Positions 8,500-46,397 of a DNA stretch of 64,000 bases are shown here, one piece after another. The translations under genes were made by a program, and so were the position numbers. This DNA is from Brachyspira hampsonii. Lineage in GTDB: Bacteria > Spirochaetota > Brachyspiria > Brachyspirales > Brachyspiraceae. The stretch is taken from NCBI RefSeq assembly GCF_002214805.1, contig NZ_CP019914.1, positions 2,170,001 to 2,234,000 on the forward strand, in the 5' to 3' direction. The first letter of the stretch is position 1. Each line of letters begins with the position of its first letter. The notes below the pieces were generated by a model. That model had not been told where the DNA came from and searched no databases. It was given only the letters and a program-made list of their open reading frames with translations.

Positions 8500-11400
8500 C
8501 TAATTAGATGAAAGTCCTATAAAAAATGATTTTAATCCTCCTTCATCATTTTCTATCGGTACAAATATCATATGGGAAATATCCTTTCTGTCTTCAGTAT
8601 CAAATTTACTTTTTATAGAGTCTGAAGCAAATGGATCAGATACATATAATGTTTTTTTATGGGATAGAATCTTTTTAAATAAAGGTTCATTCTTACTAAT
8701 ACTTAATTTACTTTTTGTATTATCGGATATATTTTGAGATTCTACTATATCATAATTCCCATTATCTTGTCTGCTAAGCATAGCAGCATGTATGATATCT
8801 AATCCTGACTGCTCTTTTACCCATTCCAACATTTCGCTCATATTTTTATTAATAAATTTTTTACCTCTAAGAGCTTTTAAAACTTTTTTCCAATTAGAAG
8901 TCATGTTTTCTTTTACTTTTTCTTCAGCTTCTCTGTAAAAATCATTTGGAACTTTAGGTACTTCTTCAGGATCATATAAATCTTTATCTATTAAATCTTC
9001 CGTATCAAAAGTATCTTTTTCGCTTGCAGGTTTAATTACTTCTCCGTCATCATATTCTTCGTTAAAATTAGGCGATATATTTGAACTTTCTTCATTGTTA
9101 TAATTATCTTCATCTTCATAATCACCTAATAGAAAATCTCTATTAAGAGAAAAATTAAAAGCATCGCTTGAAGAAAAATATTCTTCTTCTTTTTTAGCTA
9201 TCTCATCTTCTAAAATAGAACCATGACTTATCAAAATATCCCCCTCATTATTATCATCTATAATATCATCAATTCCTTTTATAATATCATTATCTGCATT
9301 ATTATTATCAATAGTTTCTTCCAGTTCTTCTTTATTATCTTCTTCTTCATTATTTTCAATTTCATCATTTAAATCAGGTATATCGTCTAAATCTTCTACA
9401 GTGTCATTTATGTTGCTGTCTTCGTCATCATCTAATATATTGTCAGAATCTAAAAGCTCCTCATCAGAATACTCTTTCATTTCCGGCATATTACTATCTT
9501 TGTTTTCTTCTTCATCTTCTTTATTATCATTGTCTTCATCAAGTACATCGTCTAAATTAGGTATATCATCTAAATCTTCTACAGTGTCATTTATATTGTT
9601 GTCTTCGTCATCATCTAATATATTGTCAGAATCTAAAAGTTCTTCATCAGAATACTCTTTCATTTCCGGCATATTATTATCTTTGCTTTCTTCTTCATCT
9701 TCTTTATTATCATTTTCTTTATTATCATTATCTTCATCGAGTACATCGTCTAAATTAGGTATATCGTCTAAATCTTCTACAGTATCATTTATATTGCTGT
9801 CTTCGTCATCATCTAATATATTGTCAGAATCTAAAAGCTCCTCATCAGAATATTCTTTCATTTCCGGCATATTATTATCTTTATTTTCTTCATCATCTTC
9901 TTTATTATCATTATCTTCATCGAGTACATCGTCTAAATTAGGTATATCGTCTAAATCTTCTACAGTGTCATTTATATTGTTGTCTTCGTCATCATCTAAT
10001 ATATTGTCAGAATCTAAAAGTTCTTCATCAGAATATTCTTTCATTTCCGGCATATTATTATCTTTGATTTCTTCTTCATCTTCTTTATTATCATTTTCTT
10101 TATTATCATTGTCTTCATTGAGTACATCGTCTAAATTAGGTATATCATCTAAATCTTCTACAGTATCATTTATATTGCTGTCTTCGTCATCATCTAATAT
10201 ATTGTCAGAATCTAAAAGTTCTTCATCAGAATATTCTTTCATTTCCGGCATATTATCATCTTTGTTTTCTTCTTCATCTTCTTTATTATCATTGTCTTCA
10301 TCAAGTACATCGTCTAAATTAGGTATATCATCTAAATCTTCTACAGTGTCATTTATATTGTTGTCTTCGTCATCATCTAATATATTGTCAGAATCTAAAA
10401 GTTCTTCATCAGAATACTCTTTCATTTCCGGCATATTACTATCTTTGTTTTCTTCTTCAGTTTCCTTATTATCATTGTCTTCATCAAGTACATCGTCTAA
10501 ATTAGGTATATCATCTAAATCTTCTACAGTGTCATTTATATTGCTATCTTCGTCATCATCTAATATATTGTCAGAATCTAAAAGCTCCTCATCAGAATAT
10601 TCTTTCATTTCCGGCATATTATTATCTTTTTCTTCTTCTTTATTATCATTATCTTCATCGAGCACATCGTCTAAATTAGGTATATCTTCTGAATCATCAT
10701 TGTCTTCATCGAGTACATCGTCTAAATTAGGTACATCTTCTGAATCATCATTGTCTTCATCAAGCACATCGTCTAAATTAGGTATATCGTCTAAATCATC
10801 ATTGTCTTCATTAAGCACATCGTCTAAATTAGGTACATCTTCTAAATCATCATTATCTTCATCAAGTACATCATCTAAATTTTCTAATTTTATACTTTCA
10901 TCATTATCATCATCATTCTCTAATACTTTATCCAAAGATGATAAATCTTCTAATTTTATATTTTCATCTTCCTCATTATTATTTTGAAGAGTTTCTCCTC
11001 CATCTTCTAGTACATCATCTAATTTTATTATATTATCATCATCAGAGTCTTCATCTTCAACCTTTATATCTTCAATGTCATCTATATTCGGTAAATCAAT
11101 TTTGCTGTTTTTTGTGATCCTGTCAGCTTTATTTAAGTACTTTATACTTGCATCATCTAATCCTTCTAAATCATTATTATAATCGTCAATATTGAATTCT
11201 TCATCATTTACAATATTAGAATTATCATAATTGTTTACAGGAGGCTCACTTTCATCATATATATTTTCTTCTAAATCTTCCTCAGGCTCATTCACTATGT
11301 TATTGTTAGCTGGTCTTAATCTTTCTATAAGAGATGTTGTAAGTAAGAAAATAAAAGACAGAGATAAAAGTCCTAATATTATATATTTTAAATATTTTTG

Positions 11401-21370: not shown

Positions 21371-24300
21371 GTGGAAAAAGAATTCGCTAGTATTTTTGAA
21401 AGTAATAAAGACATCTCGCTCGATGAGTATGAAATAAATAAACTTCTAGAAAAGACTATAGAAATTAATGAAAATGACTTTCCTGTAATATCTATAGGTA
21501 ATTCTGATAAAGAAAGCCCTAAAATACTAGCTAAAATCACTACTAAAGGATATGAAGAAAAAGATAATTCTGAAAATATCAATTTAGAAGGCAGTGAAGA
21601 AATAACTAATAATGCTTATTCAGATGAAGAAACCAAAAAATATAAAAATCTTCAGGAAGCTTTAAGTTTATCAGAAAACGATATAGAAGGGGCAGGCGAA
21701 ATAGTTGATTCTGAAATAGATATGTCTAAACTATTTCCTAATGCTGATAATACTTTTAAAGAAGAAGCTAAAATTGAAGAAGAATCAGAAAAAACATCGG
21801 AATTAACAGAAGAGCAATCTGAAATAATAAATAATATCTATTCAAAAGAAGAGAATGATATACATAAAGAATCTGAAGATGAATCTTTAGAGGGTTATGA
21901 ATTAAGTAATATTGAAACAGTTGAAGATTTTAGTTTAGATGAAAGCTTCAAAAAAATTGATGTATCAGAATATAGCGATGAAGATTTATTGTATAATCAG
22001 TTAGAAAATGATTCAGAAGATTCGTCCAATGTAGAAAAATCTATTGAAGATGAAAACTTTAATGCAGAAGAGTTAAATAGTTTAGATAATACTTTAAAAG
22101 AATTGAAAATTGATAATGAAAAAGATGTTGATATAGAAGATTTAATCAGCACAGATAATTTTTCAAATTTGGAAGAAGATATTAAAGATGAGAGTATTCG
22201 TTTAGGCGAAACAGATTTAAATAATTTAGAAGATACTTTAAAAGATTCATCAAATAATCAAAATAACACATCTAAAGATCTCAATATAGAAGATTTAATA
22301 TCTTTAGGAAATTTTCACGATATAGAAGAACATTCTGATACTTCAGAAAACAATGAATCTGCATCATCTTTGGAAGAGACAGAAAACATAGAAGAATCTA
22401 TTGATGAAAATACAGAAGAAGAATCCGATTTAGATATGAAAGAGTATACAGATGAAGAGCTTCTTGATATAAATAACATATTGGAAGAAGAAGCATCAGA
22501 TTTAGAAGTAACTGAAGAACCTGTAAAAAATAATGAATCTTTGTCCTCTTCAGGTGAAACAGAAAATACAGAAGAATCTGATTTAGATATGAAAGAGTAT
22601 ACGGATGAAGAGCTTCTTGATTCTGATAATATATTGGAAGAAGAAACATCAGATGTAGAAGTAACTGAAGAACCTGTAAAAGATAATGAATCTTCGTCCT
22701 CTTTAGATGAAACAGAAAATACAGAAGAATCTATCGATGAAGATACAGAAGAAGAATCCGATTTGGAGATGAAAGAGTATACAGATGAAGAGCTTCTAGA
22801 TGCTGATAATATATTGGAAGAAGAAGCATCAGATTTAGAAGTAACTGAAGAACCTGTAAAAGATAATGAATCTGCATCATCTTTGGAAGAGACAGAAAAT
22901 ATAGAAGAATCTATTGATGAAGATACTGAAGAAGAATCCGATTTGGAGATGAAAGAGTATACAGATGAAGAGCTTCTAGATGCTGATAATATATTGGAAG
23001 AAGAAACATCAGATGTAGAAGTAACTGAAGAACCTGTAAAAAATAATGAATCTTTGTCCTCTTCAGATGAAACAGAAAATACAGAAGAATCTGATTTAGA
23101 TATGAAAGAGTATACGGATGAAGAGCTTCTAGATGCTGATAATATATTGGAAGAAGAAACATCAGATGTAGAAGTAACTGAAGAACCTGCGGAAAATAAT
23201 GAATCTTTATCCTCTTCAGAGGAAACAGAAAATATAGAAGAAGAATTAATTGATGAAGGTTTATCTGCTTTAGAAGAATTAGAAAATATAGAAGAATCTA
23301 TTGATGAAGGCACATCCGAAGAAGAATCTGCTCCCCAAAAAGAAGAATCCGATTTGGAGATGAAAGAGTATACAGATGAAGAACTTCTAGATGCTGATAA
23401 TATATTGGAAGAAGAAGCATCAGATGTAGAAGTAACTGAAGAACCTGCGGAAAATAATGAATCTTTATCCTCTTCAGAGGAAACAGAAAATACAGAAGAA
23501 GAATTAATTGATGAAGGTTTATCTGCTTTAGAAGAATTAGAAAATATAGAAGAATCTATTGATGAAGGCACATCCGAAGAAGAATCTGCTCCCCAAAAAG
23601 AAGAATCCGATTTGGAGATGAAAGAGTATACAGATGAAGAGCTTTTAGATGCTGATAATATATTGGAAGAAGAAGCATCAGATGTAGAAGTAACTGAAGA
23701 ACCTGCGGAAAATAATGAATCTTTATCCTCTTCAGAGGAAATAGAAAATACAGAAGAAGAATTAATTGATGAAGGTCTATCTGCTTTAGAAGAATTAGAA
23801 AATATAGAAAAATCTATTGATGAAGGCACATCTGAAGAAGAATCTGCTTCCCCAAAAGAAGAATCAGAAGACATAGAAGAAGAATTAATTGATGAAGGTT
23901 TATCTGCTTTAGAAGAATTAGAAAATATAGAAGAATCTATCGATGAAGGCACATCCGAAGAAGAATCAGAAGACATAGAAGAAGAATTAATTGACGAAGG
24001 TTTATCTGCTTTAGAAGAATTAGAAAATATAGAAAAATCTATTGATGAAGGTACAGCCGAAGAAGAATATGTAAAAGATTCTGATGCTTCAGAAATTAAT
24101 AATGAATTATCATTGGATAAATATACATTAATTGAATTGGAAGACGGAACAAAAATAAAAAGAACTTCTTATGCAAAAGATAATATAGATGTTGATGATT
24201 CTAAATTTTCGGATGAACAAAATTATGTTGTTCAGCATATATATACTGAAGAACAAGATACACTTATGAAAGAAGTATCTGAAAAAGATGCTCTTACAGA

Positions 24301-27300
24301 AGAAGAATTAGAAGACATTGATTGTGTTGAAGAATTTGATTTGAATACATTTTTTAACAATCAGAAAATTAATAGTAATAATAATGACGAAATAGAAGTA
24401 CCTGATTTATATGATGATATTTCTGTAATTATTGATAATGATGATTCATTGTTGATAGATGATGAAATAGAATTACCTGAAATAGATGATGAAGAGCCTA
24501 AAGAAGTAAATTTAATAAAAGAAGATAATTTAAAAGAAGATGAAATAAGTATACAATACAATGATAGAAATGTTGTAGTTCCAGATATAGATAATGTTGA
24601 TTATATAGATGAATCTAATTATATAACAGAAATAGATAATGATGATGATATAATACAATTATCTGGAAATGAACTTGATTTAATAACTAGAGATGTTGCT
24701 ATAGAGTCTTCATCAAATGAAGAAGATATTACCGATGACTACAGAGAAAATAATTATACTATGTCAGAAGTATCTGATAAAGAGTTGGAAGAAATAGATG
24801 ATGGTTATGTGAATGAGAATGAAGAAGATATTACCGATGACTACAGAGAAAATAATTATTCTATGTCAGAAATATCTGATGAAGAGTTAGAAGAAATAAA
24901 AGATGAAGAATTAACTTCTGAATTACAGGCTGAAGAAATAGATGAAATAAAAGAAGAAATAGATGAACCTACAGAAGAATCAAAACCAGAGGAATTAACT
25001 TCACAATCACAGGAAGAAGATATAAAAACAGATGAAATAACTTCAGAAGTTCAGGAAGAAGAAATAAAAGAAGAATTGCCAGAACCTGCAGAAGAATTAG
25101 AAGAAGAATCATCAGAAGAGATAATTAATAACGAAGAAGATCTTACAGAAGAAGATAAATCTATGATAGAAGACTATTTGGATAAAGTAGATAGTTCATC
25201 AGAGGATTTAACGGAAGAAGAAAAAGAATTATATCAAAGCTATTTATCTAATCCTTCAGACTCAGAGATTAATGAAGAATTGAAAGATGAATCAGTTTCT
25301 GAGTCATTAGAAGAATCAAAACCAGAGGAATTAATTTCACAATCGCAGGAAGAAGATACAAAAACAGATGAAATAACTTCAGAAGTTCAGGAAGAAGAAA
25401 TAAAAGAAGAATTGCCAGAACCTGCAGAAGAATTAGAAGAAGAATCATCAGAAGAGATAATTAATAACGAAGAAGATCTTACAGAAGAAGATAAATCTAT
25501 GATAGAAGACTATTTGGATAAAGTAGATAGTTCATCAGAGGATTTAACGGAAGAAGAAAAAGAATTATATCAAAGCTATTTATCTAATCCTTCAGACTCA
25601 GAGATTAATGAAGAATTGAAAGATGAATCAGTTTCTGAGTCATTAGAAGAATCAAAACCAGAGGAATTAATTTCACAATCGCAGGAAGAAGATACAAAAA
25701 CAGATGAAATAACTTCAGAAGTTCAGGAAGAAGAAATAAAAGAAGAATCAGCAACAGAATCCATATCTGTCCCAGAAGAAAAAGAAGATAGTTCAGAATT
25801 AAGTAACGATTATATATCTAAGATGTATAATGATTATTTGCAAAATCAGGAATCTAACAATAAAGATGTTTCAAATGATGATTATATATCTAAGTTCCAA
25901 AAGATGAATGAGGAGTATATAGAAAGCAGTAAAAAAGAAAATGAAATAAAAGAAGAGTTATCAAATCCTGAAGAAGAATTGAAAGAAGAATCATCAGAAT
26001 ATACAATCAATAATGAAGAAGATTTAACAGAAGAAGAAAAAACAGATGAAATAACTTCAGAAGTTCAGGAAGAAGAAATAAAAGAAGAATTACCAGAACC
26101 TGCAGAAGAATTAAAAGAAGAATCAGCAACAGAATCTATATCTGCCCAAGAAGAAAAAGAAGAGAGTTCAGAATTAAGTAATGATTATATATCTAAGATG
26201 TATAATGATTATTTGCAAAATCAGGAATCTAATAATAAAGATGTTTCAAATGATGATTATATATCTAAGTTCCAAAAGATGAATGAGGAATATATAGAAA
26301 GCAGTAAAAAAGAAAGTGAAACAAAAGAAGAAGATTTAACAGAAGAAGAAAAAACAGATGAAATAACTTCAGAGGTTCAGGAAGAAGAAATAAAAGAAGA
26401 ATTGTCAGAACCTGCAGAAGAATTAGAAGAAGAATCAGCAACAGAATCTATATCTTACCCAGAAGAAAAAGAAGAGAGTTCAGAATTAAGTAATGATTAT
26501 ATATCTAAGATGTATAATGATTATTTGCAAAATCAGGAATCTAATAATAATAAAGATGTTTCAAATGATGATTATATATCTAAGTTCCAAAAGATGAATG
26601 AGGAATATATAGAAAGCATTAAAAAAGAAAGTGAAATAAAAGAAGAATCATCAGAAGATACAATCAATAATGAAGAAGATTTAACAGAAGAAGAAAAAGA
26701 ATTATACAAAAGCTATTTATCTAATCTTACAGATTCAGAGATTAAAGAAGAATTGAAAGATGAATCAGTTTTCGAGTCATCAGAAGATATAAAAGAAGAA
26801 TCAAAACCTGATGAAATAACTTCAGAAACTCAGGAAGAAGAAATAAAAGAAGAATTGTCAGAACCTGCAGAAGAATTAGAAGAAGAATCAGCAACAGAAT
26901 CTATATCTGCCCCAGAAGAAAAAGAAGAGAGTTCAGAATTAAGTAACGATTATATATCTAAAATGTATAATGATTATTTACAAAATCAGGAATCTAATAG
27001 TAAAGATGTTTCAAATGATGATTATATATCTAAGTTCCAAAAGATGAACGAGGAATATATAGAAAGCAGTAAAAAAGAAAGTGAAAAAAAAGAAGCATCA
27101 GAACCCGCAGAAGAATTGAAAGAAGAATCATCAAAAGATACAATCAATAATGAAGAAGATTTAACAGAAGAAGAAAAAGAATTATACAAAAGCTATTTAT
27201 CTAATTCTGCAGATTCAGAGATTAAAGAAGAATTGAAAGATGAATCAGTTTCCGAGTCATTAGAAGATATAAAAGAAGAATCAAAACCTGATGAAATAAC

Positions 27301-29488
27301 TTCAGAGCTTCAGGAAGAAGAAATAAAAGAAGAATTACCAGAACCTGCAGAAGAAGTAAAAGAAGAGAGTTCAGAGTTAAGTAATGATTATATATCTAAG
27401 ATGTATAATGATTATTTGCAAAATCAGGAATCTAATAATAATAAAGATGTTTCAAATGATGATTATATATCTAAGTTCCAAAAGATGAATGAGGAGTATA
27501 TAGAAAGCAGTAAAAAAGAAAGTGAAACAAAAGAAGCATCAGAACCTGCAGAAGATACAAAAGAAGAATTAAAATCTGATGAAACAACTTCAGAAATTCA
27601 TGAAGAAGCAAAAGAAGAGGAAGATATTCAAGAAGAAGTATCCGAACCATTAGAAGATATAAAAGAAGAATCAAAACTTGATGAAACAGCTTCAGAAACT
27701 CATGAAGAGGAAACAAAAGAGGAAGATATTCAAGAAGAAATATCAGAACCTGCAGAAGATACAAAAGAAGAAGAATCAAAACCTGATGAAACAAAAGAAG
27801 ATATATCAGAAGAAGAGATAATCAATAACGAAGAAGATCTTACAGAAGAAGATAAATCTATGATAGAAGGATATTTGGATAAAGTAGATAGCTCATCAGA
27901 GGATTTAACAGAAGAAGAAAAAGAATTATATCAAAATTATTTATCTAATTCTAGCGAATCTGATATAAAAGAAGAAGAATTGAAAGAAGAATCCATTTCC
28001 GAATCATCAGAAGATATAAAAGAAGAATCAAAACTTGATGAAACAGCTTCAGAAACTCATGAAGAGGAAATAAAAGAAGAAGATATTCAAGAAGAAATAT
28101 CAGAACCTGCAGAAGATACAAAAGAAGAATTAAAATCTGATGAAACAAAAGAAGATGTATCAGAAGAAGAGATAATCAATAACGAAGAAGATCTTACAGA
28201 AGAAGATAAATCCATGATAGAAGGATATTTGGATAAAGTAGATAGCTCATCAGAGGATTTAACAGAAGAAGAAAAAGAATTATATCAAAATTATTTATCT
28301 AATTCTAGCGAATCTGATATAAAAGAAGAAGAATTGAAAGAAGAATCCATTTCCGAATCATCAGAAGATATAAAAGAAGAATCAAAACTTGATGAAACAG
28401 CTTCAGAAACTCATGAAGAGGAAATAAAAGAAGAAGATATTCAAGAAGAAATATCAGAACCTGCAGAAGATACAAAAGAAGAAGAATTAAAATCTGATGA
28501 AACAAAAGAAGATGTATCAGAAGAAGAGATAATCAATAACGAAGAAGATCTTACAGAAGAAGATAAATCCATGATAGAAGGATATTTGGATAAAGTAGAT
28601 AGCTCATCAGAGGATTTAACAGAAGAAGAAAAAGAATTATATCAAAATTATTTATCTAATTCTAGCGAATCTGATATAAAAGAAGAAGAATTGAAAGAAG
28701 AATCCATTTCCGAATCATCAGAAGATATAAAAGAAGAATCAAAACTTGATGAAACAGCTTCAGAAACTCATGAAGAGGAAACAAAAGAAGAAGATATTCA
28801 AGAAGATGAATTATATGACGAAGATCATAATAATGAATTAAAAGAAGAAGTAAGCGATGAAGAATTAGAAGATCTTGTATATATAAATAATGTTCAAATA
28901 GATGAAATAAAAGATTCTGATTTGAATATGCTTGAAAATATTATTAGAGGTAATGATGAAGACGGCGTAGAGCTTATAAAAATAAATGATAAGATAAATG
29001 AAAATAATACTCAAGAAGATAATACCAAAGTAAAATCCTTAGAAAATTTTGATTCTATGGAAGAGCTTTTAAATAAGGAGACGAATATGTCTGAAGAAAA
29101 AGAATTAGAAACTATTGATAAAGAAAATCTAGATGATAATGTAGCAGTTGAAGAAGAATTTAGTTTGGGCGATGATAATGAACCTATACTAATGGAGGAT
29201 AGAAAACATTCAGAAGATGAAGAAGAAGATTTTGACGGAGAAATTACTCAATCTGATTTAGATTATGCTATTAAGCTATTCGAATCTGAAGAGGCTAGCG
29301 GACAAGTTAATGAGTATAGTTCTAAAGCTGATATACTATTATCAGAAAACGAAATTAATAAATTCAAAAAACTTTTTGGATACTTCAAAAATATTGTAGA
29401 AAAAATGTCTCCTGAAGATTTAAACGACTTTTCAAAAACAGAGTTCTACGATATGTATTCATCTTTATTTAGAAAATTTGGCGATTAA
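21371..29488 (+). CDS. Giant acidic repeat protein (about 2705 residues)
   Basis: Function unknown. There is no signal peptide or TM helix. Almost the whole length is Glu/Asp/Ser-rich and probably disordered. Repeat families in order: seven copies around MKEYTDEELLDADNILEEE (residues about 350-770), five of ELIDEGLSALEELENIE, five of SNDYISKMYNDYLQNQES with YISKFQKMNEEYIES, and five full NEEDLTEEDKSMIE(D/G)YLDKVD units followed by DLTEEEKELYQ. The last 80 residues look like a small helical domain ending YDMYSSLFRKFGD. The MKEY[S/T]DEELL core is shared with the GAF-like protein at 8500. The GTG at 21371 has GAAGAGAA upstream; a TTG at 21365 is the alternative. A cytoplasmic scaffold is possible but unsupported. 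Confidence 0.8.
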   Translation: MEKEFASIFESNKDISLDEYEINKLLEKTIEINENDFPVISIGNSDKESPKILAKITTKGYEEKDNSENINLEGSEEITNNAYSDEETKKYKNLQEALSLSENDIEGAGEIVDSEIDMSKLFPNADNTFKEEAKIEEESEKTSELTEEQSEIINNIYSKEENDIHKESEDESLEGYELSNIETVEDFSLDESFKKIDVSEYSDEDLLYNQLENDSEDSSNVEKSIEDENFNAEELNSLDNTLKELKIDNEKDVDIEDLISTDNFSNLEEDIKDESIRLGETDLNNLEDTLKDSSNNQNNTSKDLNIEDLISLGNFHDIEEHSDTSENNESASSLEETENIEESIDENTEEESDLDMKEYTDEELLDINNILEEEASDLEVTEEPVKNNESLSSSGETENTEESDLDMKEYTDEELLDSDNILEEETSDVEVTEEPVKDNESSSSLDETENTEESIDEDTEEESDLEMKEYTDEELLDADNILEEEASDLEVTEEPVKDNESASSLEETENIEESIDEDTEEESDLEMKEYTDEELLDADNILEEETSDVEVTEEPVKNNESLSSSDETENTEESDLDMKEYTDEELLDADNILEEETSDVEVTEEPAENNESLSSSEETENIEEELIDEGLSALEELENIEESIDEGTSEEESAPQKEESDLEMKEYTDEELLDADNILEEEASDVEVTEEPAENNESLSSSEETENTEEELIDEGLSALEELENIEESIDEGTSEEESAPQKEESDLEMKEYTDEELLDADNILEEEASDVEVTEEPAENNESLSSSEEIENTEEELIDEGLSALEELENIEKSIDEGTSEEESASPKEESEDIEEELIDEGLSALEELENIEESIDEGTSEEESEDIEEELIDEGLSALEELENIEKSIDEGTAEEEYVKDSDASEINNELSLDKYTLIELEDGTKIKRTSYAKDNIDVDDSKFSDEQNYVVQHIYTEEQDTLMKEVSEKDALTEEELEDIDCVEEFDLNTFFNNQKINSNNNDEIEVPDLYDDISVIIDNDDSLLIDDEIELPEIDDEEPKEVNLIKEDNLKEDEISIQYNDRNVVVPDIDNVDYIDESNYITEIDNDDDIIQLSGNELDLITRDVAIESSSNEEDITDDYRENNYTMSEVSDKELEEIDDGYVNENEEDITDDYRENNYSMSEISDEELEEIKDEELTSELQAEEIDEIKEEIDEPTEESKPEELTSQSQEEDIKTDEITSEVQEEEIKEELPEPAEELEEESSEEIINNEEDLTEEDKSMIEDYLDKVDSSSEDLTEEEKELYQSYLSNPSDSEINEELKDESVSESLEESKPEELISQSQEEDTKTDEITSEVQEEEIKEELPEPAEELEEESSEEIINNEEDLTEEDKSMIEDYLDKVDSSSEDLTEEEKELYQSYLSNPSDSEINEELKDESVSESLEESKPEELISQSQEEDTKTDEITSEVQEEEIKEESATESISVPEEKEDSSELSNDYISKMYNDYLQNQESNNKDVSNDDYISKFQKMNEEYIESSKKENEIKEELSNPEEELKEESSEYTINNEEDLTEEEKTDEITSEVQEEEIKEELPEPAEELKEESATESISAQEEKEESSELSNDYISKMYNDYLQNQESNNKDVSNDDYISKFQKMNEEYIESSKKESETKEEDLTEEEKTDEITSEVQEEEIKEELSEPAEELEEESATESISYPEEKEESSELSNDYISKMYNDYLQNQESNNNKDVSNDDYISKFQKMNEEYIESIKKESEIKEESSEDTINNEEDLTEEEKELYKSYLSNLTDSEIKEELKDESVFESSEDIKEESKPDEITSETQEEEIKEELSEPAEELEEESATESISAPEEKEESSELSNDYISKMYNDYLQNQESNSKDVSNDDYISKFQKMNEEYIESSKKESEKKEASEPAEELKEESSKDTINNEEDLTEEEKELYKSYLSNSADSEIKEELKDESVSESLEDIKEESKPDEITSELQEEEIKEELPEPAEEVKEESSELSNDYISKMYNDYLQNQESNNNKDVSNDDYISKFQKMNEEYIESSKKESETKEASEPAEDTKEELKSDETTSEIHEEAKEEEDIQEEVSEPLEDIKEESKLDETASETHEEETKEEDIQEEISEPAEDTKEEESKPDETKEDISEEEIINNEEDLTEEDKSMIEGYLDKVDSSSEDLTEEEKELYQNYLSNSSESDIKEEELKEESISESSEDIKEESKLDETASETHEEEIKEEDIQEEISEPAEDTKEELKSDETKEDVSEEEIINNEEDLTEEDKSMIEGYLDKVDSSSEDLTEEEKELYQNYLSNSSESDIKEEELKEESISESSEDIKEESKLDETASETHEEEIKEEDIQEEISEPAEDTKEEELKSDETKEDVSEEEIINNEEDLTEEDKSMIEGYLDKVDSSSEDLTEEEKELYQNYLSNSSESDIKEEELKEESISESSEDIKEESKLDETASETHEEETKEEDIQEDELYDEDHNNELKEEVSDEELEDLVYINNVQIDEIKDSDLNMLENIIRGNDEDGVELIKINDKINENNTQEDNTKVKSLENFDSMEELLNKETNMSEEKELETIDKENLDDNVAVEEEFSLGDDNEPILMEDRKHSEDEEEDFDGEITQSDLDYAIKLFESEEASGQVNEYSSKADILLSENEINKFKKLFGYFKNIVEKMSPEDLNDFSKTEFYDMYSSLFRKFGD
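22420..24070 (+). repeat. First acidic repeat block of the giant gene
   Basis: Seven MKEYTDEELL units are interleaved with EVTEEP(V/A) and ELIDEGLSALEELENIE units. Unit lengths vary (about 50-86 residues), with the longest, nearly identical ones at 23200-23760. Confidence 0.9.
24990..28820 (+). repeat. Second acidic repeat block of the giant gene
   Basis: A 336-bp unit is repeated essentially without change at about 25075 and 25411. Later, 354-bp and 357-bp units follow one another from about 27871 (repeat marks at 27871, 28225 and 28582). Five SNDYISKMYNDY units lie between. All unit lengths are multiples of three. Confidence 0.9.
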
Positions 29489-45181: not shown

Positions 45182-45210
45182 TTGACATAAAAGTAAAAAA
45201 AGCATATTAT
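45182..45210 (+). promoter_or_regulatory. Near-consensus promoter of the heptamer-repeat ORF and lipoprotein
   Basis: TTGACA (45182-45187), exactly 17 nt and TATTAT (45205-45210) predict a start at about 45217, the A of the ATG of the small repeat ORF. The transcript could therefore be leaderless. Confidence 0.7.
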
Positions 45211-45216
45211 TTCTGT

Positions 45217-45333
45217 ATGGAAAATACAAAAATAATAGTAAATATACATATATCTGAAACTCAGAACTCAGAACTCAGAACTCAGAACTCAGAACTCAGA
45301 ACTCAGAACTCAGAACTCTTCTTTAATCAATAA
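45217..45333 (+). CDS. Small ORF carrying the heptamer repeats (possible leaderless, phase-variable leader)
   Basis: 38 codons: MENTKIIVNIHISE, then repeating TQNSELR units, ending SELFFNQ. The start codon lies at the predicted transcription start and has no ribosome site. The seven-base repeats produce a seven-residue protein repeat. With the present eight units the frame stops at 45331. Because seven is not a multiple of three, each gain or loss moves the downstream frame. Nothing else supports translation. Confidence 0.35.
   Translation: MENTKIIVNIHISETQNSELRTQNSELRTQNSELFFNQ
45260..45318 (+). repeat. Heptanucleotide tandem repeat (CTCAGAA), eight copies and a partial ninth
   Basis: Eight perfect units occupy 45260-45315, followed by CTC. 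Perfect short tandem repeats are prone to slipped-strand changes in length. The repeat has no stop codon in any frame. Confidence 0.97.
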
Positions 45334-45556
45334 AAAATCTCATAATTATAAAAATACACTTACTATAATAAACCTGCAGTCTCTTTTTGTGTTGCAGAAA
45401 TTAATTAGTAAATCATACAATATACAATTTTATATAAATAATCTTTCAATTAAAATACTTAACATAATAGATAAATATTCACATTTATTTAACTCAGCAG
45501 TAAGCATTAGAAATAATGTTTATAATAAACAAAAATTATTAAAAGGAGTTCAAACT

Positions 45557-46162
45557 ATGAACAAAAAGATTTTTTCTATTTTCATAATGGTAATGGCTTT
45601 ATCATTATTCGGTGTAAGCTGTAACAACAAGACTACATCTCCGAACGATTCAAATTCAGGTTCTGGAAACAACGGCGGCGGTACTACAATAGTTGGTAAT
45701 GATTTGCCTTCAATATCTTCATTATCTCTTAGTGATACAGGTAAAGGATATGAAAATGTTGTAGGTAATGCATTAGTAATTGATATACCTGCTAGTCCTA
45801 GTGGAATTGGAGAAGCAGTTTCTAGCGGTAAAGTAGTAATAGCAAATCTTAATACTGATGTAACAAGTGTAACTTATGAAGTAGCAAAAGTTACTAGACA
45901 TAGTGGTGATAGCTTTGATGCTACTTATTCTACTGGTAGCAAACCTGTAGTAGAAGATTTTAATGCTTTCATTATAAAACCTGAAGTTACTGTAGGTGAA
46001 TTTAAACTTGCTATTTCTGAGCAATCTGCTACAGATTTATCTGCTCAAGATTGTCTAGATACTGCTAATGATGCTGCTGGATATGTAGTTACTGTTGCAG
46101 TATCAGCTAGCGGATATACAACTGAAACTGTTGATGTATATGTACAATTAAAGAAACGATAA
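45557..46162 (+). CDS. Putative lipoprotein
   Basis: The 201 residues start with MNKKIFSIFIMVMALSLFGV directly followed by SC, a signal peptide with lipobox LFGVSC and Cys22 as the likely lipidated residue. A Ser/Gly/Asn linker (about 23-48) leads to a probable beta-rich domain of about 150 residues with no recognised family. AAAGGAG lies 11 bases before the ATG. The same frame is open upstream to 45242, through the heptamer repeat, which is unusual in such AT-rich DNA. A long hairpin and a terminator follow. It may be surface-exposed. Confidence 0.75.
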   Translation: MNKKIFSIFIMVMALSLFGVSCNNKTTSPNDSNSGSGNNGGGTTIVGNDLPSISSLSLSDTGKGYENVVGNALVIDIPASPSGIGEAVSSGKVVIANLNTDVTSVTYEVAKVTRHSGDSFDATYSTGSKPVVEDFNAFIIKPEVTVGEFKLAISEQSATDLSAQDCLDTANDAAGYVVTVAVSASGYTTETVDVYVQLKKR

Positions 46163-46361: not shown

Positions 46362-46397
46362 GCCCCTTTGTTTGATACAAGCAGAGGGGTTTTTTTT
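46362..46397 (+). terminator. Intrinsic terminator downstream of the lipoprotein gene
   Basis: GCCCCTTTG and CAGAGGGGT form a GC-rich stem followed by T8. Confidence 0.8.

Follow-up and report, generated by a model that had tools for sequence, protein, structure and literature searches.

In the opa genes of Neisseria (CTCTT) and in licA of Haemophilus (CAAT), the repeats form part of the controlled gene's own coding sequence, and at hmw1A and hmw2A of Haemophilus influenzae the number of heptamers tunes transcription from the promoter region. In Streptococcus gallolyticus, GCAGA repeats lie in a leader-peptide gene at pil1 and pil3 (PMC3894217). At pil1 a long leader disrupts a terminator stem-loop, resulting in high expression of the surface operon (PMC3894217). 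The present study concerns a 64,000-nucleotide (nt) stretch of the Brachyspira hampsonii genome (the window; assembly GCF_002214805.1, contig NZ_CP019914.1, positions 2,170,001 to 2,234,000), in which copies of the heptamer CTCAGAA are found inside a small leader open reading frame (ORF) 5′ of a lipoprotein gene. Judged from sequence, this leader ORF is likely to act as a phase-variable switch in which repeat slippage would control the downstream gene.

S. gallolyticus pil1 is the nearest known case, but the anatomy in Brachyspira is different and the use much wider. In both systems the number of units shifts the frame of a leader, a surface gene lies downstream and multiple loci are present per genome (two in S. 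gallolyticus). Unlike at pil1, the open phase in Brachyspira runs to the next start codon, many starts are predicted to be leaderless, and several unrelated units are found in front of many gene families. A further difference is that no intrinsic terminator was found between array and gene in the leaders examined, those of the window and of the GT1 family, and terminator-based attenuation of the pil1 type was rejected on this ground. As at opa and licA, slippage early in an ORF would switch the frame, and the genes concerned are surface genes; the Brachyspira repeats, in contrast, lie in a separate leader ORF, which mostly does not encode the product. As at hmw1A and hmw2A, a heptanucleotide array is placed 5′ of a surface protein gene; unlike in promoter-spacing systems of the hmw and nadA type, it lies 3′ of the promoter and of the start codon. 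In operons with translational coupling an upstream stop codon likewise lies near the downstream start or overlaps it, but here the repeat number would make or break the coupling.

A heptamer array in the leader of a lipoprotein gene

The window locus comprises the following elements.

45182–45210, + strand: promoter, with TTGACA at 45182–45187, a 17-nt spacer and TATTAT at 45205–45210 (11/12 match to consensus)
45217–45333, + strand: leader ORF of 38 amino acids (aa) as read with 8 units, the predicted OFF phase (ORF list and simulated unit changes)
45260–45315, + strand: (CTCAGAA)x8, perfect units (Tandem Repeats Finder, TRF: 45258–45318, 8.7 copies)
45316–45556, + strand: post-array leader, open in the lipoprotein frame; predicted ON phase with 7 or 10 units
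45557–46162, + strand: lipoprotein gene, 201 aa, lipobox LFGVSC, the proposed controlled gene (ORF)

The promoter is the best promoter-like site of its surroundings. Its −10 box is separated by 6 nt from the ATG at 45217, which places the start codon at the expected transcription start. An earlier note on this DNA had described eight CTCAGAA copies in a 38-codon ORF beginning at the predicted transcription start of a near-consensus promoter; the sequence, TRF and the ORF list agree with this description. The promoter is kept in the orthologous loci, and the −10-to-ATG distance is 6–10 nt in the lipoprotein A and GT1 families. At the loci compared, the arrays start 14–72 nt from the predicted −10 box and lie 3′ of the promoter elements. 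Runs of at least three consecutive CTCAGAA units occur at two sites only in the 3.19 Mb genome, and the reversed pattern at none.

The repeats sit inside the promoter-proximal leader ORF, and the unit length of 7 nt is not a multiple of three. When the number of units was changed in silico, 5, 6, 8, 9 or 11 units gave products of 31–45 aa with a stop 11–18 nt past the array, and 7 or 10 units gave 312 or 319 aa, read through the lipoprotein to 46162. The simulation confirms the earlier claim that loss of one unit or gain of two leads into the lipoprotein frame. This frame had been taken as open from 45317; it is in fact open already from 45242 to 46162, the array included. Among dinucleotide shuffles of this leader (242 nt), no more than 0.08% left one of the three phases open all the way to the gene (0.0005–0.0008), in line with the view that so long an open frame is unlikely by chance.

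Homologues of the lipoprotein are present in 20/26 Brachyspira genomes, often with the signal peptide alone matching. A Pfam search of the window lipoprotein returned no family, and an AlphaFold prediction made without an alignment had a pLDDT of 34.6; this model was not used.

Proposed mechanism of the switch

From the promoter spacing, the strong promoter is predicted to give an mRNA that starts at the ATG of the small ORF or 1–3 nt before it. The array would change in length by single units through slipped-strand mispairing, each change shifting the reading frame downstream. In two of the three phases, a stop would be met within about 20 nt past the array and the next 200 or more nt would stay untranslated (OFF). 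Rho-dependent polarity, a lipoprotein ribosome site left unaided, or both, may account for the OFF state. In the third phase the whole leader would be translated up to the Shine-Dalgarno sequence or the start of the lipoprotein gene, and coupling or reinitiation would license expression while Rho is kept off (ON). Ribosome transit would be what counts, and the leader peptide would be largely dispensable. The window copy, with 8 units, would be in the OFF phase, and 7 or 10 units would turn it ON.

Base composition and stop positions bear on the molecular step. Rho is encoded. The lipoprotein-A leaders have C at 0.11–0.17 and G at 0.04–0.07; C outnumbers G in the leaders generally and in most arrays, and the reverse mostly holds for downstream genes. 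An untranslated OFF leader with C in excess over G suits Rho-dependent polarity. A leader that stops close to the next start, or overlaps it, is in keeping with translational coupling, and the two processes can act together.

Arrays of unrelated units across Brachyspira

At least three further arrays of the same layout were found in the genome of the window (G000, 3,189,639 bp). One, (CTCAGAA)x13, precedes a glycosyltransferase-like gene (G000:C1:3140411); another, (AATCAGC)x20, is followed by a gene of a second lipoprotein family (position 1556388); and (CATCG)x11 precedes an MBOAT acyltransferase (L359, G000:C1:832934-832988). DNA searches of the genus with two leaders returned relatives, most of which have heptamer arrays shortly past the start codon. 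The units vary among orthologues (AATCAGC x5 and x8; ACTCAGC x5, x6 and x8; ACTCAAA types up to x18), and six lipoprotein paralogues of G011 carry CTCACAG x4 to x11. A degenerate search for A[AC]TCA[AG][AC] arrays gave about 30 places in 15/26 genomes; all arrays inspected, barring those truncated at contig ends, are 5′ of a gene in the same orientation. An unrelated pentamer class, (CATCG)n, occurs in 17/26 genomes with up to about 30 units and shows the same order of promoter, ATG, array, leader and gene.

The genes behind the arrays belong to GT2 (PF00535), GT8 (PF01501), GT11 (PF01531), GT61 (PF04577), FkbM (PF05050), O-methyltransferases (PF13578), MBOAT (PF03062), YidC-like proteins (PF02096) and DUF1796, together with lipoproteins A, B and others. 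A GNT-I-like transferase was matched weakly, under the curated cut-off. The sole exception to the surface or surface-modifying pattern is a glycine reductase subunit (PF09338). At L356 (G015:C8), a (CATCG)x24 leader stands before the gene of a glycine/sarcosine/betaine reductase subunit, a metabolic gene.

Two GT1 cassettes, from G000 and G009, differ at 12/1203 nt past the array and have 13 and 12 units, respectively. By a hand tally, 7/43 array loci are open as assembled against 14.3 expected at random (binomial 0.010), a post hoc count over partly related loci that is best treated as a lead. The GT1 leader of G004 is divided over contigs C14 and C10 (L291, L298) with an overlap of about 20 bases, probably reflecting an insertion or rearrangement within the leader.

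One phase of the leader reaches the downstream gene

The end of the array ORF was computed at each locus for n, n+1 and n+2 units. At nearly all loci one phase, at times two, reaches the downstream gene and the others stop soon past the array. At 18/24 loci some phase extends at least to −30, over the start or into the gene, where shuffles lead one to expect 6.0; the open phases combined over the 24 loci, mostly of distinct gene families, give a Fisher p of 6e-11. Relative to the gene start, the open phase ends as follows.

lipoprotein A: −14 (L280, L284, L286) or fused
GT1 (glycosyltransferase 1): −93 to −16
lipoprotein B: +4 or −69
GT2: +4 or +11
YidC-like: +4 or +14
methyltransferase: −1
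GT8: −4
CATCG loci: +19, −12, +4, −76, +4, −29, +17, −16, +14, −15, +7 and others; at L342, fused to a lipoprotein over a leader of 252 nt

For most families, the array ORF comes to its stop ahead of the gene or shortly after entering it; in the window one phase would fuse with it. Fusion leads to a different account, in which the ON phase makes an N-terminally extended lipoprotein that is functional as such or differently exported. In the window, at four other arrayed lipoprotein-A loci (L281, L282, L283, L285) and at L342, the open phase does enter the gene unstopped. An extended product is nevertheless improbable, since the three lipoprotein-A loci listed at −14 stop short of the gene, and at the GT2, YidC-like, methyltransferase and GT8 loci, as at most CATCG loci, the stop is close to the start or overlaps it. 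In addition, the leader is without amino-acid selection (see below), the lipoprotein gene has its own Shine-Dalgarno sequence and start, and the signal peptide would lie about 110 residues inside the protein. Recognition of a signal peptide at such a depth is hardly expected. The earlier note had allowed for an extended product or for altered translation or export of the lipoprotein; the extended product is not favoured, and the proposal that repeat number governs whether translation reaches the lipoprotein is strongly supported by the comparison.

Frame conservation in the leaders

No stop interrupts the open frame in 586 codons from the eight lipoprotein-A leaders; the other frames have 71 and 104. 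Gaps in these leaders come almost exclusively in multiples of three, and those of a single base are confined to the region near the 3′ end, where they shift the stop to −14. The ratio of non-synonymous to synonymous changes per site (pN/pS) is 1.02. A frame that is kept at such a ratio suggests that ribosome passage matters and the peptide does not, and a functional leader peptide in lipoprotein A was rejected for want of amino-acid selection. Relatives that lack an array (L287/L288, L297) are fixed in the open phase; L282 and L285, with one or two units left, are not in the open phase. The frame data and the array-free open leaders are consistent with ribosome passage being a requirement.

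The GT1 leader has a pN/pS of 0.59 compared with 0.83–0.88, indicating mild amino-acid constraint, and the position of its stop is conserved. Both features would be expected if the leader were a functional small protein and its own phase variation were what counts, with the downstream gene no more than a neighbour. This is very doubtful in view of the ratio found in lipoprotein A. Moreover, the leaders of the various families are unlike in sequence, yet end near the gene, and the short ones are too small for a domain.

Conserved elements in the lipoprotein leader

The following further elements were noted at the window locus.

45319–45329, + strand: conserved block TTCTTTAATCA directly 3′ of the array, able to pair with the lipoprotein Shine-Dalgarno sequence
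45374–45397, + strand: conserved block CTGCAG...GTTGCAG (leader alignment), holding an RTTGCA motif at 45391–45396
45501–45523, + strand: conserved hairpin 5′ of the Shine-Dalgarno sequence, pairing in 9/9 leaders
45541–45548, + strand: Shine-Dalgarno sequence AAAAGGAG of the lipoprotein, invariant in the alignment bar one base
46362–46390, + strand: intrinsic terminator 3′ of the lipoprotein gene

Within the block directly 3′ of the array (45319–45329), TTCTTTAA is invariant across 9 aligned leaders. Changes in the hairpin are limited to compatible G-U and A-U pairs. A conserved RNA fold spanning the lipoprotein-A leader was considered and rejected, as only this local hairpin and weak covariation were found.

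These elements bear on graded control at the RNA level, by which the array and the sequence following it would pair with the Shine-Dalgarno sequence and array length would tune access regardless of frame. At the window locus the end of the array pairs with the Shine-Dalgarno sequence (−12.7 kcal/mol, z −3.5), and the consensus fold retains 6 of those Shine-Dalgarno pairs. In the orthologues and in other families, however, z is near 0, the stem is without covariation, and the staying open of one frame is left unexplained. We therefore give graded control little chance. As a general mechanism, sequestration of the Shine-Dalgarno sequence by the array was rejected because it is significant at the window locus only.

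At least six leader families share, 35–95 nt past the array, a motif with an RTTGCA core, roughly TTGTCATTGCA (window, 45391–45396; leaders L188, L302, L306, L307, L312, L317 and L327). Among GT2 leaders this motif is read in differing frames, which suggests a constraint on the nucleic acid itself or joint inheritance with the module.

Assessment

Neutral tandem duplication within AT-rich untranslated DNA, with open frames due to chance or ancestry, would agree with the presence of CTCAGAA arrays in many unrelated bacteria and with short leaders often being open by chance, but it is already disfavoured and highly unlikely given the combined p over 24 loci, the unrelated units at one position and a frame kept through divergence and gaps.

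The switch in which repeat number decides ribosome transit to the next gene draws its comparative support from the conserved open frame without amino-acid selection, the shared layout with unrelated repeats before many genes, and the one-unit difference between two near-identical cassettes. The anatomy, frame arithmetic, conservation and recurrence of these loci are direct observations. Several points weigh against the switch. The case is computational throughout, with slippage, the ON/OFF assignment and the molecular step inferred, and copy number was compared between species and paralogues, with one genome per species. Short leaders, taken singly, are without significance, and the fit is poor at L308 and L367. 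The GT1 open phase stops 16–93 nt 5′ of the gene, so that reinitiation would be distant. As a natural control, 5/21 other upstream regions of the window (at least 200 nt) hold an open frame, a control that is unclean because some of these frames are misassigned starts.

On balance the evidence leans towards genus-wide switches in Brachyspira, in which promoter-proximal leader ORFs, often leaderless, carry unrelated repeats (heptamers, CATCG) whose slippage would make or break ribosome transit to the next gene. One open phase would have evolved repeatedly, neither a terminator hairpin nor a functional peptide would be needed, and the form based on coupling or Rho would be previously undescribed. 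In the open full-text literature, Brachyspira was not paired with slipped-strand mispairing, nor with the combination of phase variation and tandem repeats, and phase variation goes unmentioned in the genome papers on Brachyspira that were searched as text. The recurrence of the layout before Brachyspira surface genes suggests a so far undescribed family of on/off switches.

Brachyspira are agents of intestinal disease in pigs, birds and people. If the switches are real, repeat counting before lipoprotein and glycan genes would explain surface variability, and caution would be due that reference genomes may mostly capture OFF states. The loci would also provide many natural replicates of how ribosome transit through an arbitrary leader activates the next gene.

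Additional observations

CTCAGAA arrays of at least four units were seen in at least 119 DNA stretches (L009–L127) from many phyla, including Bacteroidota, Acidobacteria, cyanobacteria and Planctomycetes. In these other phyla 2/133 CTCAGAA arrays were accompanied by the GTCATTGC motif, indicating no link between the two. Within the window, long tandem repeats (periods 51–453 nt) with acidic repeat proteins are found in two regions, 9356–10881 and 22417–28806, which lie on opposite strands.

The pattern TTGACA-N-TATAAT followed within 13 nt by an ATG occurs at 30 places in G000 (L190–L219), and the reversed pattern at 2. The 30 promoter-ATG sites suggest many leaderless genes. About nine of them precede long, mutually similar ORFs, which by eye are Rpn-type nuclease/transposase-like.
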